A program made the translations under genes and the position numbers. A stretch of 26,151 bases of DNA from a virus: the IMG/VR virus record IMGVR_UViG_3300047388_000177, positions 1 through 26,151 of that record; one strand, given 5' to 3'. This document shows positions 9,026 to 19,560 of this stretch, piece after piece. Within the stretch, counting starts at the first letter, position 1, and every line of letters starts with the position of its first letter. The notes under the pieces were generated by a model. It did no database searches. It saw only the letters and a list, made by a program, of their open reading frames with translations, and was not told the DNA's origin.

Positions 9026-10084
9026 ATGATTCTAGACTTATTAGCCGATGCTATCAAGACAAATATCGGGCCCACAAAATCTGCACCCAAAGGATATCAG
9101 AAACGGAATTGCATGTTATGCCACACGCAAGGACACGGTAAAGATACTCGAAGCCGTTTTGGTATTAAATTTGATGCAACTTCTATTTCCTTAAATTGTT
9201 TTAATTGTTCCTATAAAGCATCATATACCGAGGGAAAGGAATTATCCAAGTCAATGAAATTTTTCCTACAACAAATACATGTTGGTGAAGAATTTATTAA
9301 GACAATTGAATTTGAAATTTTCAGAGAGAAAAATAAATTACCCGGTATTCGTGAAGGGCATACTACCGAAGACTCCGAGGGTAAATTTAAGAAACTTTTT
9401 CAGAAGTGGAAATCAGTGGAGTTACCACCGGACTCTTTAAGGGTTACAGAATGGCTAGAGTACGGTTTAGATGATCCACAGTTCCTAAAAGTTGTCAACT
9501 ATGCCGTGAATAGGCATATCTACAATCTAGATGAATTTTACTGGAGTCCGGAAAGATCTCACAATTTAAACCAGCGACTAATAATTCCGTATTATTATAA
9601 GAAAAATGTTGTTGGATACACTTGCCGTTTATGTTACGATACAGAGGAAAAGATAATCCCAAAATACTATCAGCAGTGCCCTATTGACTTTGTCTATAAT
9701 CTTGATCCACAACAAGGGTGGGCACGTAAATACGTTCTGGTTAACGAAGGTGTGCTAGATGCTTGGTCTGTTGACGGCATAAGTATATTGGGGGAAATTG
9801 GGCAGGCAAAGATAGATATTATTAATCGTTTGCAGAAGCAGGTGATCGTATGTCCCGACAGGGACAAGAAGGGATCGGATTTAGTTGATGCGGCAATTGA
9901 AAACAATTGGTCGGTTGCATTCCCAAAATGGTCAGCAGGAATTAAAGACGCTGCCCAAGCATCGGAAATTTACGGAAGATTACTGACTACACACTCTATT
10001 ATTTCTACCGCAGTATCTGGAAAGGAAAAAATACAGTTGACCTGGGATATACAGGCCGCCGAGAGGAAAAGACGAAATAAATGA
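9026..10084 (+). CDS. 61: DNA primase (gp61-like)
   Basis: A 352-residue primase that makes RNA primers on the lagging strand with the gp41 helicase. The N-terminal zinc-binding domain shows CxxC pairs at Cys29/Cys32 and Cys58/Cys61. The RNA-polymerase and TOPRIM core follows: a FNCSYKA-like segment after the zinc site, LIIPYY near 185-190, then TOPRIM VNEGVLDAW with Glu241, and CPDRDKKG with Asp278 and Asp280. The length matches T4 gp61 (342). Its stop overlaps the ATG of the first half of the gp41 gene (ATGA), so primase and helicase are translationally coupled. No ribosome site is seen, and initiation may be leaderless from the promoter overlapping the previous gene's end. Confidence 0.93.
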   Translation: MILDLLADAIKTNIGPTKSAPKGYQKRNCMLCHTQGHGKDTRSRFGIKFDATSISLNCFNCSYKASYTEGKELSKSMKFFLQQIHVGEEFIKTIEFEIFREKNKLPGIREGHTTEDSEGKFKKLFQKWKSVELPPDSLRVTEWLEYGLDDPQFLKVVNYAVNRHIYNLDEFYWSPERSHNLNQRLIIPYYYKKNVVGYTCRLCYDTEEKIIPKYYQQCPIDFVYNLDPQQGWARKYVLVNEGVLDAWSVDGISILGEIGQAKIDIINRLQKQVIVCPDRDKKGSDLVDAAIENNWSVAFPKWSAGIKDAAQASEIYGRLLTTHSIISTAVSGKEKIQLTWDIQAAERKRRNK

Positions 10085-10758
10085 CCGAAGAAAATTCTAG
10101 TGAGATAAACGACTATAGTAAGGACGTAGAGGATTTGTTTATCAATTTTATGATGAGCAAACCGGATCTATTCATTCGCTGCAAAGGTATTCTGAAATCA
10201 GACTATTTTGATGATAAGCAAAACAGGGATACAGTGGCTTTCATCGAAGGATATAGTATTGATTTTTCAAATATACCGTCACTGCAACAAATAAAGGCAC
10301 TGACACGGAAAGAAATTGAAATTATGGAGGTCGAGGCAGCTCAGCACGAGGACTGGTTTTTAAGAGAGTTTGAAAAATTCTGCAGACATAAAGCACTACG
10401 CGATGCAATTTTAGCATCACCGAAATTATGGGAGGGGGGAAGATATGGGGAAGTTGAAGCAACCGTTAAGGCTGCGGTACAGATTGCCCTTGTTAAAGAC
10501 CTCGGGACCGATTATTATGCGAATCCGAAATCTCGTCTTGAAGCGATTCGAGAAGGTAAAGGGCAGGTATCCACGGGATGGAAAACAGTAGATGATAAGC
10601 TCTACGGCGGGTTTAACAAGGGTGAAATTACAATCTTTGCAGGTCAATGTGTAACAGCAGATACAAAGGTGACGGCGGTAAAAATATTAGATATAGATAA
10701 ATACTTTAGCCAGAGTGGACTGCATAAAGGATTTATACATGAAGAAAACAAATGTTGA
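10081..10758 (+). CDS. 41: gp41 replicative helicase, N-terminal half fused to a short N-intein
   Basis: A 225-residue protein. Residues 1-189 are the N-terminal part of a DnaB-type T4 gp41 helicase (LFINFMMSKPDLF near 23-35, STGWKTVDDKLYGGFNKGEI before the break). They stop just inside the P-loop at FAGQ. Residue 190 is Cys and opens an intein block A (CVTADTKV), followed by ILDIDKYF and a stop after 36 intein residues. Alone, this protein lacks Walker A, Walker B and the arginine finger, so it cannot be an active helicase. Trans-splicing to the partner at 11809-13152 would restore GQSGAGKS and a 481-residue helicase (T4 gp41 is 475). Its last 20 bases overlap the endonuclease gene. Confidence 0.92.
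   Translation: MTEENSSEINDYSKDVEDLFINFMMSKPDLFIRCKGILKSDYFDDKQNRDTVAFIEGYSIDFSNIPSLQQIKALTRKEIEIMEVEAAQHEDWFLREFEKFCRHKALRDAILASPKLWEGGRYGEVEATVKAAVQIALVKDLGTDYYANPKSRLEAIREGKGQVSTGWKTVDDKLYGGFNKGEITIFAGQCVTADTKVTAVKILDIDKYFSQSGLHKGFIHEENKC
10648..10755 (+). other. Split-intein N-fragment (36 residues)
   Basis: It begins with the nucleophile Cys1 in CVTADTKV (block A) and ends in HEENKC. Most split inteins have N-fragments of about 90-120 residues carrying blocks A and B. This one carries only block A, as in the few 'atypically split' inteins known from metagenomic phage genes. The ILDIDKYF segment corresponds to the region after block A, just before the loop where the break lies. Confidence 0.85.
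10696..10703 (+). promoter_or_regulatory. Candidate internal late promoter for the intein-associated endonuclease
   Basis: GATAAATA lies in the N-intein coding sequence (codons for Asp-Lys-Tyr). A transcript from it would start near 10709, 30 bases before the endonuclease ATG and upstream of its AAAGGA site. Two other copies inside genes (15982, 19356) serve no nearby start, so this match could be chance. Confidence 0.35.
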
Positions 10759-11821
10759 GAAATTTTTAGGAATAAAGGCAGTAAAAAATATATTGTTCGA
10801 CTACAATATAACCGATGTACAAAAATCTGCAATAGAATTATATTTTGAAATAAACGGATATAGAAACTCCCAAGATAGATATCCAAGACTAGCATGGTTT
10901 CTTAAACAAGGGATAGTGAATTTGATAGACAGAGAAACAGAATTGCTAAAATATAATAGAATGAGTGTAGAATATTTTCGCATTTTATACGGAAGTAAGC
11001 TCGGGGAACATAAATGGTATGCGAATTTAGAAAATATAAAATCATACCTTCCTTCTCGAATTATATATTGGGAAAATAAAGGATATTCTTTAGAAGATGC
11101 TGAGTCGATGGTAAAAACACATCAGAAAACAGCATCGCAACAATCATTATTTAGAGAACATAAGAAATTTAGTGTTAGATGCAAAGAATATTGGATGGAT
11201 AAGGGATATGATGAAGAACTGGCAATAGATCTTGTAGGCAAATCTCAGACAAGGGATTTACCATTTTACATAGAAAAGTATGGGGAAGAATTGGGTAATA
11301 AAAAATATAGGTATTCTTGCAATAAGAGAATAAAGACGTGGGAAAACAAAACACCAGAGGAAAGACATGATCATTATTTAAAAACTCTCCCTATTATATA
11401 CAATGAAAATGGGCAAGAAATGCAAGCGATTAAACTATTCTTGCAACAAAATAATATACCTGAAAATAATTGTATGTTCGGCGCGCCAAAAGATCAATTT
11501 TATCAATGGATACCCGACTACGGATTCAGAAGATATGACTTGGCTGTGTTCGCCGATCATACAAAAAAAGAATTAATATCAATAATGGAATTTCACGGCC
11601 CCGGTCATATAAATTTTTCCGATTATGCAGAAAGCATGTCTAATTCTATCATAGAAATAAATGGCAAGAAATTACCGCACTTAGGAACTTATGGTAATAG
11701 TTATAGAAATGATTATAGAAAAAGAGATCATATAGAAAATGTATTTCCCAACGTCAAATATTATGTATTCTGGAATACAGATTTAAAAATAAAGGATTTA
11801 AAAATTAAATGTATGATATAA
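10739..11821 (+). CDS. Free-standing homing endonuclease between split-intein halves (Vsr/PD-(D/E)xK-like)
   Basis: A 360-residue protein located between the two helicase fragments. The frame extends to 10715, but the ATG at 10739 has an AAAGGA site seven bases upstream. A module is repeated twice: YGSKLGEHKWYANL (84-97) with YWENKGYSLEDAESMV (110-125), and YWMDKGYDEELAIDLV (151-166) with YGEELGNKKYRYSC (181-194). This suggests DNA-recognition repeats. The C-terminal domain resembles a Vsr/PD-(D/E)xK nuclease: Asp267 in RRYDLAVF, Glu284 with His286 in IMEFHGPGH, RNDYRKRD (323-330), and a VFWNTD strand near the end. It overlaps the genes on both sides (20 and 13 bases). AT-rich codon use (ATA, AGA, AAA) contrasts with the flanking helicase. 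The nuclease family is inferred from motifs. Confidence 0.75.
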   Translation: MKKTNVEKFLGIKAVKNILFDYNITDVQKSAIELYFEINGYRNSQDRYPRLAWFLKQGIVNLIDRETELLKYNRMSVEYFRILYGSKLGEHKWYANLENIKSYLPSRIIYWENKGYSLEDAESMVKTHQKTASQQSLFREHKKFSVRCKEYWMDKGYDEELAIDLVGKSQTRDLPFYIEKYGEELGNKKYRYSCNKRIKTWENKTPEERHDHYLKTLPIIYNENGQEMQAIKLFLQQNNIPENNCMFGAPKDQFYQWIPDYGFRRYDLAVFADHTKKELISIMEFHGPGHINFSDYAESMSNSIIEINGKKLPHLGTYGNSYRNDYRKRDHIENVFPNVKYYVFWNTDLKIKDLKIKCMI

Positions 11822-12273
11822 AAATGGAATATCTGGCTAAGTTCTATGACATAGATAAGCTAAAATATTATAAAACTCGTTATCCCGACAGATTCGACGA
11901 ACTATATAATGATATGTTACCTAATGAATACAATATTCTTGACTTGCATGATACAAACGATAAATGGTTTGTGGATTCTGCAGATGGGCTTGTTCCGGTA
12001 GCTGGTTTGATTTCTAAAGGGTCGTATGAAATATATAAGACAGAATTCACAGATGGCACATTCATAAATTCATCAGGGCTGCATTGTTATGAGAATATCT
12101 ACGGCGGATATATCGCGCCTATAAACTTAAAAAGGGGAATGCAGCTAAAATCATCAGATGGTATAAAGATAGTTTCTGATGTAACAAACACAGGAATAAT
12201 AGACCTTGTGTTTGATCTTGTGGTAGATAGTGAAAATCATAGATACTATACAAACGGGGTGTCATCCCATAAT
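11809..12273 (+). other. Split-intein C-fragment (155 residues)
   Basis: After a charged, Tyr-rich extension of about 50 residues (LAKFYDIDKLKYYKTRYPDR within it), the canonical intein fold resumes: WFVDSADGLVPV (53-64), YEIYKTEFTDG (73-83), block B INSSGLHCYE with His92, block F VFDLVVDSENHRYYTNG (134-150), and block G VSSHN with Asn155. Ser156 is the acceptor. No endonuclease domain lies between blocks B and F. The extension has no counterpart in mini-inteins I know and could help bind the 36-residue partner. Confidence 0.85.
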
Positions 12274-13152
12274 TCGGGAGCGGGCAAATCTCTTTTCCTG
12301 CAGAATCTTGCAGTGAATTGGGCCCAGGCAGGATTAAACGTAGTTTACCTTTCGTTAGAACTTAGCGAAGCTTTATGTTCGATGCGTATCGACGCAATGC
12401 ATACCGGATTTGAAACTCGAGAAGTTATGCGCAATATCGATGATGTTCATATTAAAGTAAGGGCATCTCAACAGAAGAGTCATGGAACACTTCGTGTTAA
12501 ACAATTAAAGAATGGATGTACCGCAAATGATATTCGGGCATACATTAAAGAATACGAAATTCATTCAAAGATAAAGGTAGACGCAATTCTAGTTGACTAC
12601 CTAGATTTAATGATGCCAATGAGCACAAAGATCTCAGCAGAAAACTTATTCGTTAAGGACAAATATGTAACCGAAGAGTTGCGTAATCTTGCAGTCGAAT
12701 TGAATACAGTAACAGTATCGGCTTCACAGCTAAATCGGGGATCCTATGAAGAAATTGAGTATGACCCGAGCCACATCGCCGGTGGTATTTCTAAAGTCAA
12801 CACCGCAGATAATGTTGTGGGTATTTTTACAAGTGCTGCAATGAAGGAAAGCGGCCGCTATCAGATTCAATTCATTAAGACACGTTCGAGTTCGGGTGTT
12901 GGCTCGAAGGTTGATTTAGCATTCAATAATAAGAGTTTGCGTATTACTGACCTTGAAGAGGGCGAAGATAATGCTGTGGCTGCAACTACAAAGAATATCT
13001 ATGATCAGCTGAAGAAGAGGAGTGTAGTTAAGTCTGATGAAAAACTTGATCCGTCAACCGGCGAAATTACCTCTACAACACAAATTAGTGGAAAGTCCGG
13101 TGTATTGACTGGTGCTGCACTCGTAAGAGAAATGCAGAAAAACCGTAGATAA
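11809..13152 (+). CDS. 41: C-intein fused to the C-terminal half of gp41 replicative helicase
   Basis: A 447-residue protein. Residues 1-155 are the C-intein, ending SSHN. Ser156 is the +1 residue and starts SGAGKS, the second half of the Walker A motif. The helicase core follows: VVYLSLELSE (RecA-fold helix region), AILVDYLDLMMP (Walker B), VTVSASQLNRGSYEE (DnaB motif 3), and FIKTRSSSGVGSKVDLAF near the end. A long tail (TTQISGKSGVLTGAALVREM) ends it. The ATG at 11809 directly follows an in-frame TAA. The nearest ribosome site, AAAGGA at 11791-11796, is 12 bases away, so translation may depend on coupling from the endonuclease gene, which it overlaps by 13 bases. It is inactive without splicing to the N-half. 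Confidence 0.92.
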   Translation: MYDIKMEYLAKFYDIDKLKYYKTRYPDRFDELYNDMLPNEYNILDLHDTNDKWFVDSADGLVPVAGLISKGSYEIYKTEFTDGTFINSSGLHCYENIYGGYIAPINLKRGMQLKSSDGIKIVSDVTNTGIIDLVFDLVVDSENHRYYTNGVSSHNSGAGKSLFLQNLAVNWAQAGLNVVYLSLELSEALCSMRIDAMHTGFETREVMRNIDDVHIKVRASQQKSHGTLRVKQLKNGCTANDIRAYIKEYEIHSKIKVDAILVDYLDLMMPMSTKISAENLFVKDKYVTEELRNLAVELNTVTVSASQLNRGSYEEIEYDPSHIAGGISKVNTADNVVGIFTSAAMKESGRYQIQFIKTRSSSGVGSKVDLAFNNKSLRITDLEEGEDNAVAATTKNIYDQLKKRSVVKSDEKLDPSTGEITSTTQISGKSGVLTGAALVREMQKNRR

Positions 13153-18201: not shown

Positions 18202-18224
18202 GTTGATTAAAATTTTTAAGTTAT

Positions 18225-18232
18225 GATAAATA
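18225..18232 (+). promoter_or_regulatory. Late promoter GATAAATA for the HNH endonuclease
   Basis: It is placed 24 bases after the intrinsic terminator. Transcription would begin near 18238, which lies after the ATG at 18223 and so rules it out as the start, in favour of ATG 18256. Confidence 0.65.
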
Positions 18233-18255
18233 TATCAAGCTTTGTGGGGTTTACT

Positions 18256-19560
18256 ATGGAACAGTCAATTGAATATCAGATGAAAAGGTATACAAAATTT
18301 ATAGAGGGCAGGAAAAATCGAGAAATCGATAAAAATTTTACATACACCGAGATTCATCACATAAATCCCAGGTCGTTAGGTGGCACGAATGATGTAGACA
18401 ATCTTATATGTTTAACTGCACGGGAACATTATATTGCTCATTGGATGTTATTTAAGGTTTATCCAAATTCTTATAAGATGTTTAATGCATTTTATTCCAT
18501 GTGTTGTAAAAATTCTGGTAAAATAGAATATAATATTGTTTCTTTTAAAAGATTATTGAATTCCAAAACATTTCAGATATTAAAAAATAAAAACAGTGAA
18601 TATAGAAAAGGTAAAGTTTTTGTAATAGAAAAAGCCACAGGGCTAAATACGATGATTACCAAACATGAATTCAGGGCGAATCGAGAGAAATATTCTTATT
18701 ATACAGAAGGGATGGTCTCTGTCTTTGACGAAGAGGGAAATACCTGTTATATAGATTGCGATACCTATCATAAAAATAAAAATAAATATAGTCATAGAAA
18801 TTCTGGCAAAGTCTTTGTTTATTCCAAAAAAGAGTCCGAAAATAATGGAGTTTGGCTTGATATAAACGAATATGAAAATAATAAACATTTATATATAACA
18901 CATTCGACCGGGTTAGTTACTGTTAGAGACATTACCGGTAATAAAGTCAGAATACCGACTGAGATTTATCAGTTAAATAAAAATGAATTTACTCACAAAA
19001 ATTCGGGTTTGTTAAGTGTTAGAGATTTAAACGGTATAGAACAATTAATAACAGTTGACGAATATAATAACAACAGGGATTTATACATTCATAAAAATAA
19101 AAATTATATAAACGTGTTTAATGATTCCGGCGATAGATTAAGAATAACAATGGACGAATATCGAAAAAACAAGAGTTTATATAAAACTATATCATCGGGA
19201 ACAGTAGTTGTGTTTAATTCCTTGGGTAAGAGAATCAGGATATCCAAGAACGAATATGCAAAAAATGCAGGATCTTATACACCTTATAAAAAGAATGATA
19301 TCACTTTATTAAACCCCGATGGGGAAAAATTATCTATTACATCAAGTGAATATAAGATAAATAGGGAATACTATCGTTCTCTGGGATTCAGGACTGCATT
19401 TGAGTTCGCTAAAATTCAATATTATGATAAGTATTATAATATAATAGTGCATCTTACATCCGAGGAAGCCAGGAACTTAAATAAAGTGTATGAAAGAAAT
19501 AGATTCTTACAACTATCGAAAATGAAAAATCAGATAAAGGATAATGAAAATGGTAATTAG
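18256..19560 (+). CDS. HNH homing endonuclease with eight tandem DNA-binding-like modules
   Basis: A 434-residue protein. The nuclease part, residues 30-70, shows YTEIHHINPRSLGG with His34/His35, Asn49 in DNLICL, and REHYIAHWML with His58 and His62. This is the HNH signature of phage homing endonucleases. Residues 119-378 are eight repeats of 32-35 residues with the pattern G-x-V-x-V-x-D-x-x-G, a short strand, x-E-Y-x-x-N-x-x-x-Y. They are probably DNA-recognition modules. The start at 18256 is chosen because the upstream ATG lies in the late promoter. A GGGG tract is six bases before it. AT-rich codon use (ATA, AAA, AAT) differs from flanking virion genes. It ends inside the start of the next structural gene and supplies that gene's ribosome site. 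No intron or interrupted gene is seen, so it is free-standing. Confidence 0.85.
   Translation: MEQSIEYQMKRYTKFIEGRKNREIDKNFTYTEIHHINPRSLGGTNDVDNLICLTAREHYIAHWMLFKVYPNSYKMFNAFYSMCCKNSGKIEYNIVSFKRLLNSKTFQILKNKNSEYRKGKVFVIEKATGLNTMITKHEFRANREKYSYYTEGMVSVFDEEGNTCYIDCDTYHKNKNKYSHRNSGKVFVYSKKESENNGVWLDINEYENNKHLYITHSTGLVTVRDITGNKVRIPTEIYQLNKNEFTHKNSGLLSVRDLNGIEQLITVDEYNNNRDLYIHKNKNYINVFNDSGDRLRITMDEYRKNKSLYKTISSGTVVVFNSLGKRIRISKNEYAKNAGSYTPYKKNDITLLNPDGEKLSITSSEYKINREYYRSLGFRTAFEFAKIQYYDKYYNIIVHLTSEEARNLNKVYERNRFLQLSKMKNQIKDNENGN
18610..19389 (+). repeat. Eight tandem ~32-residue coding repeats in the HNH endonuclease
   Basis: The units start GKVFVIEK, GMVSVFDE, GKVFVYSK, GLVTVRDI, GLLSVRDL, NYINVFND, GTVVVFNS and NDITLLNP, with lengths of 33, 32, 35, 32, 32, 32, 32 and 32 residues. 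DNA identity between units is modest, so the array is old. Units 4 and 5 are the most alike. Confidence 0.8.

Follow-up and report, generated by a model that had tools for sequence, protein, structure and literature searches.

How can a replicative helicase work when its gene is broken within the codons of its ATP-binding loop? The question is raised by the IMG/VR virus record IMGVR_UViG_3300047388_000177, of which positions 1 to 26,151 were analysed (the window). At window positions 10081-13152, a helicase of the gp41/DnaB type is encoded in two open reading frames (ORFs), which contribute 189 and 292 residues and are separated by a break in the Walker A motif, FAGQ^SGAGKS. We consider it very probable that a mobile element, made up of a split intein and a homing endonuclease gene, sits in the Walker A codons of this jumbo-phage replicative helicase, and that the enzyme works only after trans-splicing.

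The broken helicase gene

The features of the locus, followed by the neighbouring primase and a comparison gene, are as follows.

10081-10758, + strand: helicase N-half ORF, 189 helicase residues and 36 intein-N residues, then TGA
10081-10647, + strand: helicase N-extein, 189 residues, ending ..GEITIFAGQ (PHROG_19 DnaB-like helicase, E 1.3e-17)
10648-10755, + strand: predicted intein-N, 36 residues, with Cys1 and block A CVTADTKV; stop TGA at 10756-10758
10739-11821, + strand: probable homing endonuclease, 360 residues; ATG start with AAGGA 7 nt upstream
11066-11125, + strand: first YWxxKGYxxExAxxxVxxxQ repeat, a likely DNA-binding module (from alignment)
11189-11248, + strand: second YWxxKGYxxExAxxxVxxxQ repeat (from alignment)
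11381-11818, + strand: putative nuclease domain, with RYDL..F, I.E(F/Y)HGP.H, SY..D..K and Y.V.W (conserved core)
11809-13152, + strand: helicase C-half ORF, 155 residues ending VSSHN and 292 starting SGAGKSLFLQN
11809-12273, + strand: predicted intein-C, 155 residues, Ser+1 next (profile, model and family hidden Markov model)
12274-13152, + strand: helicase C-extein, 292 residues, beginning with the +1 Ser of SGAGKS (Pfam DnaB_C, PHROG_19)
9026-10084, + strand: DNA primase (gp61-like, Toprim), from weak matches to Pfam Toprim_2 and to a PHROG DNA primase
564-1628, + strand: UvsX recombinase with intact P-loop (AGESGSGKS), outside the element (PHROG_97, E 2.2e-61)

Placed end to end, the two exteins form a protein of 481 residues that aligns without gaps, over 478 residues, with the uninterrupted 479-residue helicase of Pseudomonas phage PA5oct (55% identity, 74% similarity); the junction falls at FAGQ^SGAGKS. 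This alignment and the confirmed coordinates uphold the initial annotation, which had read the locus as a fractured gp41 with halves of 189 and 292 residues. PA5oct and a second Pseudomonas phage, MIJ3, are the isolated phages nearest to the window, and in both the helicase is a single ORF adjoining the primase. The primase-helicase gene order is common to the window, PA5oct and relatives; in the window, the stop codon of the primase and the first codon of the helicase N-half overlap (ATGA). The C-half ORF matches Pfam DnaB_C (E 7.7e-16) and PHROG_19 (2e-46), and after joining, DnaB_C is present together with Walker A. Because Walker A is broken, the halves can soundly be expected to have no ATPase activity before splicing. 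In Pyrococcus RadA, a P-loop intein does block that activity (PMC6195587).

Intact gp41 relatives without an insert at the same point, which the initial annotation had anticipated, are abundant. Among the best 80 relatives of the C-extein in IMG/VR, 77 have no insert at exactly the FAGQ/SGAGKS point or the corresponding one; the closest of these is 94% identical over the C-extein, and the remaining three (loci L100, L122 and L005) bear the element.

The region between Cys1 and HN cannot be a single ORF, because every frame contains 20-59 stops. It had been described as part of three coupled ORFs with overlaps, and the overlaps are there: the N-half and the middle ORF share 20 nt, and the middle ORF and the C-half share 13 nt. 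The first overlap is again 20 nt in two of three relatives and 50 nt in L006; the second ranges from 4 to 20 nt across the window and its relatives. These overlaps and the AAGGA-type sites suggest that the three ORFs are probably translated as one coupled unit. The best start for the middle ORF is the ATG at 10739; a mechanical choice of the GTG at 10715 would give 368 residues.

A split intein and a putative endonuclease

After FAGQ, the N-half continues with CVTADTKVTAVKILDIDKYFSQSGLHKGFIHEENKC and then stops. We judged this short piece with a motif for block A, derived from the starts of 20 inteins that do not belong to the window's own family. Position 10648 ranks first of the 23,012 12-mers in the window, with 18.5 bits against 9.5 for the runner-up, and the piece is conserved in L003, L006 and L086. 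It ends after ILDIDKYF, which by comparison with other inteins would be the first helix, and its 36 residues lie within the range of 15-37 reported for the intein-N of natural atypically split inteins (PMC13014065).

The C-terminal piece has an N-terminal extension of about 50 residues, followed by block B (SSGLH), block F (FDLVVDSENHRYYTNG) and block G (SSHN). The block B His, block F, the His-Asn of block G and the +1 Ser (SSHN^S) are kept in relatives. A profile made from intein-C sequences of the window type and related ones was compared with all PDB chains; it matched the characterised split inteins VidaL (8.3e-21), gp41-1 (3.7e-13), Cat (1.9e-5) and PolB16 (6.3e-5). An AlphaFold2 model of intein-C (predicted local distance difference test score, pLDDT, 78) likewise has VidaL as its top match, followed by DnaB, RecA and gp41-1 inteins, and so agrees with a Hint fold, as judged by its matches among known intein structures. 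Finally, a family hidden Markov model (HMM) trained on contiguous inteins from phage gp41 genes of other lineages, plus one from UvsX, matches the C-half ORF at E 2.9e-19 and no other ORF of the window.

At the level of sequence and model, then, the case for intein-C rests firmly on family profiles and fold, and that for intein-N on the position-specific motif test and on conservation. The earlier assignment of FAGQ/Cys and HN/SGAGKS as the edges of a split intein interrupting Walker A is thus backed by profile, fold and block-A motif. By its residues the intein appears to be class 1 (Cys1, terminal Asn, Ser+1) and atypically split, and trans-splicing is predicted.

The middle ORF, which the initial annotation had called a 360-residue endonuclease, is a different case. 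The ORF, its conservation, its repeats and its core all stand; the ORF has no match in Pfam, NCBIfam or PHROG, and its similarity to a nuclease family is weak. Its N-terminal 148 residues resemble the endonuclease found between the halves of the PA5oct UvsX gene (hhalign probability 99.2, E 2.9e-19). The core residues of the nuclease domain (D/ExH/H/D..K) are invariant in 11 sequences of two architectures, the second being free-standing endonucleases in which the same domain is fused to Hef-type repeats (L192, L203-L206). With hhalign, the domain shows a weak similarity to an EDxHD-type set (E 0.0011 in one comparison, probability 20%). It has no match in Pfam or PDB, profile searches of PDB being empty or meaningless, and no relative of it was found in bacterial genomes. 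Because its DNA-binding repeats are homologous to those of endonucleases lying between intein halves, its D/ExH/H/D..K core is conserved and it has a weak EDxHD/Vsr-type similarity, we regard the middle ORF as a probable homing endonuclease, whose nuclease domain is perhaps related to EDxHD.

Two neighbouring observations concern endonucleases in general. The Hef-like endonucleases of L192 and L203-L206, which have DUF7487 repeats, adjoin a conserved small gene resembling MazG. The window itself carries, at 18223-19560, what appears to be a free-standing HNH homing endonuclease gene (PHROG 655, E 1.9e-30).

Recurrence, selection and probable movement

Is the broken gene an isolated curiosity? 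The complete layout recurs in three further independent IMG/VR contigs from separate metagenomes (L003/L004, L006 and L086), and a fourth contig, L005, holds its 3' half. This recurrence excludes chance and also the assembly error that had been raised as an alternative. The endonuclease is 55-62% identical to its counterparts in three contigs and 38-45% to those in three more, and intein-C is 56-65% identical among the window-type contigs. All seven loci with a full-length endonuclease homologue, the window included, are gp41 P-loop fractures.

All five inteins of the window type fall into one clade (99/98), whereas in the helicase tree the occupied genes are scattered among empty ones. Grouping the host helicases as a single clade is rejected by the approximately unbiased (AU) test, with p 4e-7 for four hosts and 2e-4 for five. 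The contrast between a single intein clade and scattered hosts supports horizontal movement. We found no copy of the intein in 13 contigs of empty-site relatives, which reach 369 and 382 kb; in one empty-site contig (166 kb), part of a Hef-like endonuclease weakly matches the nuclease domain. Nor is there a sign of recent transfer from the nearest empty lineage, because DNA identity is not raised beside the site: the flanking 63 nt are 79% and 76% identical, and overall identity is 80% and 78%.

All parts of the element and of the helicase are under purifying selection. The ratio of nonsynonymous to synonymous rates (dN/dS) is 0.10-0.16 for the endonuclease, and the corresponding ratio of proportions (pN/pS) is 0.27-0.41 for intein-C and 0.08-0.18 for the exteins, the most conserved parts; silent sites are near saturation, and the dN/dS values are rough and in some cases not computable. 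This saturation is one of several points that weigh against our interpretation. Scattered occupancy could also reflect an old presence with many losses. With generic Pfam and NCBIfam intein profiles, the two fragments either give no hit or score under the threshold, and we therefore built family profiles; the family HMM in turn gives no signal on the 36-residue intein-N alone (3 bits, wrong columns), and for that reason the block-A motif was used instead. The initial annotation had named a failing intein profile as a refutation, and with generic profiles this outcome does formally occur for the 36-residue piece; recognition came through the family profiles for intein-C, and for intein-N through the first rank of its block-A motif. 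The AlphaFold2 model of the endonuclease is poor (pLDDT 67) and matched no solved fold, and the assignment of the endonuclease to a family is weak.

This last point bears on the most serious competing explanation, which we nevertheless think improbable: that the intein splices but ORF2, the middle ORF, has decayed or cuts elsewhere and does not act as a homing endonuclease here, the fracture merely being passed on by descent. In its favour, ORF2 has no match to a known nuclease family, and no fold was resolved. Against it, ORF2 is under purifying selection and keeps an invariant core that is also found in Hef-like endonucleases; moreover, the ORF2 family accompanies the gp41 P-loop fractures in seven loci, and the occupied hosts are scattered among empty relatives.

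It is much less probable that the two halves assemble without splicing, with intein remnants that are inert or merely hold them together. There are precedents for phage enzymes that are split and function as two chains, as in the endonuclease-split NrdA of phage Aeh1 (PMC2988022). Here, however, the class 1 positions (Cys1, block B His, Asn and Ser+1) are all kept in four independent elements, the intein parts are under purifying selection, and two loose ends within the P-loop could hardly be expected to make up an ATP site. A decayed helicase gene or an assembly error, for which the interruption itself is the sole support, is more doubtful still: the full layout stands in three contigs from separate metagenomes, the exteins are the most conserved parts, and there is no second gp41 among the larger ORFs of the 26 kb window fragment. 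An RNA-level element, that is, a group I or II intron with a homing endonuclease, can be dismissed almost entirely, since, common as phage introns with endonuclease genes are, no Rfam match occurs anywhere in the window and the residues at the exact junctions, Cys1 and HN, are those of an intein, with homology to Hint domains besides.

We therefore return to the split intein with its homing endonuclease. The 36-residue intein-N and the 155-residue intein-C would associate and fold into one Hint domain. We infer the splicing steps from known split-intein biochemistry: an N-S acyl shift at Cys1, transesterification to Ser+1 and Asn cyclisation would link FAGQ to SGAGKS, restoring the ATP-binding loop in a helicase of 481 residues. 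The ORF2 endonuclease, for its part, would cut the uninterrupted P-loop codons of related gp41 genes, and repair from the occupied copy would spread intein and endonuclease together.

If so, until trans-splicing takes place a jumbo phage seems to possess its replication helicase only in the form of two inactive chains, which would put a natural gate on replication. This new atypically split intein, with its 36-residue N-piece, could also serve protein ligation, and the endonuclease appears to represent an undescribed family with a recognisable nuclease core.

P-loop fractures elsewhere and known systems

In uncultured phages, inteins are often found at the P-loop of gp41. The site is occupied by contiguous mini-inteins, by split inteins with an intein-N of 14-20 residues and by split inteins with one of 27-46 residues. 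In a T4-like gp41 clade (L018-L079), split forms are interspersed among contiguous ones on the tree, which means that splitting, or rejoining, has probably happened repeatedly. A second group at the window's own site has a different, Hef-like endonuclease of 601 residues (L007, L009-L011, L013, L014 and L017). In L086 (3298-8132) and L009-L011, a second, gp41-8-like split intein at SQLNR|C accompanies the P-loop one, leaving the helicase in three pieces with additional endonuclease ORFs between them.

The window's endonuclease family is also found in L199, L200 and L201/L202, where gp41 is broken two codons downstream, at AGGSG^[ST]GKS, and the intein-N has 17-21 residues. Compared across the two registers, the endonucleases share 38-45% identity and the intein-C parts only 28-37%, which hints at partly separate histories of endonuclease and intein; a single origin of the window-type and L199-type inteins received an AU p of 0.39.

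The downstream register is that of the break in the PA5oct UvsX gene, at AGESG^SGKS (L084 1723-4729; NC_071039.1 134722-137728). There, gp276 ends in AGESG followed by a 17-residue intein-N, CLPETAKVKIRLSKKQS; gp275 is the endonuclease; and gp274 consists of intein-C, close to VidaL (E 1.7e-35), and the remainder of UvsX from SGKS onward. In the PA5oct annotation, gp275 and gp276 are hypothetical and gp274 is annotated ESI-MS/MS. The fracture is also matched in MIJ3 and in other records of the PA5oct group. We found no description of an intein in PA5oct UvsX in the papers searched, and the authors of the MIJ3 report mention a PolB intein only. Window and PA5oct are mirror images: in the window gp41 is occupied and UvsX intact, in PA5oct UvsX is occupied and gp41 intact.

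We tentatively entertain a broader scheme, although it is rather less likely to be right than wrong: the window's element may belong to a family of split-intein/endonuclease elements that move from one Walker A motif to another among paralogous phage ATPases (gp41, UvsX, perhaps PhoH and TerL), sliding by two codons within the motif, with endonuclease and intein as exchangeable modules. Whatever the route, occupied and empty sites, two registers, the UvsX mirror case and the double-split helicases together make a comparative set for how sites are chosen and changed.

Several further interruptions were seen. The 462 kb phage genome LR756500.1 has a PhoH-like ATPase broken at the P-loop by a split intein (GKAG|TGKT; L171 156-3427), with an EDxHD-like endonuclease bearing similar repeats, and also a TerL P-loop split (L172). 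In Salicola phage SCTP-2 (L170 1279-3285), the UvsX ORF, annotated as hypothetical, contains two contiguous inteins, one of them in the P-loop in the PA5oct register. Two other UvsX fractures lie right before the P-loop Thr (HN^TFFALAV; L089 3968-6170), with an endonuclease that does not have the window's nuclease domain, and at DTISGG|C (L090 511-3097), with an EDxHD-like endonuclease.

How does the window's element compare with systems already known? Dassa et al. (Nucleic Acids Res 37:2560, cited in PMC6892783 and PMC13014065) reportedly described in 2009 fractured genes that consist of a split host gene, a split intein at the break and an endonuclease between the halves, with gp41 among the hosts. 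The window shares the first two parts and has a probable endonuclease as the third, one that belongs to no listed family. The gp41-1 and gp41-8 inteins lie elsewhere in gp41 and are canonically split, whereas the window's intein is split near its N-terminus and breaks Walker A.

In having a short intein-N and a long intein-C, the window instead resembles the atypically split inteins VidaL (PDB 6vgv), AceL TerL, GOS TerL, PolB16 and Cat. VidaL is the closest solved structure to its intein-C. The split position, however, looks like S2, after the first helix, whereas that of VidaL is S1; the window's intein-C has about 50 extra N-terminal residues compared with the VidaL type, and it is only about 30% identical to the VidaL-like intein-C of PA5oct UvsX. 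VidaL-named inteins are listed for phage helicase and UvsX genes.

The site has many parallels. The inteins of DnaB, RadA and TerL likewise interrupt the ATP-binding loops of RecA-fold ATPases or their relatives, and the preference of inteins for the P-loop is general (PMC5050341). At site b of mycobacterial DnaB the +1 residue is the Mg-binding P-loop Ser (PMC6195587); the window's +1, the first Ser of SGAGKS, is five residues upstream, and the window's intein is split. The UvsX fracture of PA5oct and MIJ3 has between its halves an endonuclease whose N-terminal region is homologous to that of the window's middle ORF, but differs in host gene, in lying two residues deeper in Walker A and in the EDxHD-like nuclease end of its endonuclease. 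EDxHD/Vsr-like homing endonucleases have the same motif order as the window's, E(F/Y)xG..H, D..K/R and W; the window's has one residue fewer between E and H and no W-E motif.

The initial annotation had suggested that the arrangement might be new, and this appears to hold in part. The P-loop site (a common one), the atypical split (with an intein-N of published length) and the fractured gene are each already known. In the open literature, which takes in neither the 2009 fractured-gene paper nor subscription journals, we met with no account of the combination, the endonuclease family, the register shift or the UvsX mirror case. Measured against these systems, what appears to be new is the combination itself, the endonuclease family, the two-codon register shift, the mirror case in UvsX and a gp41 with two split inteins.

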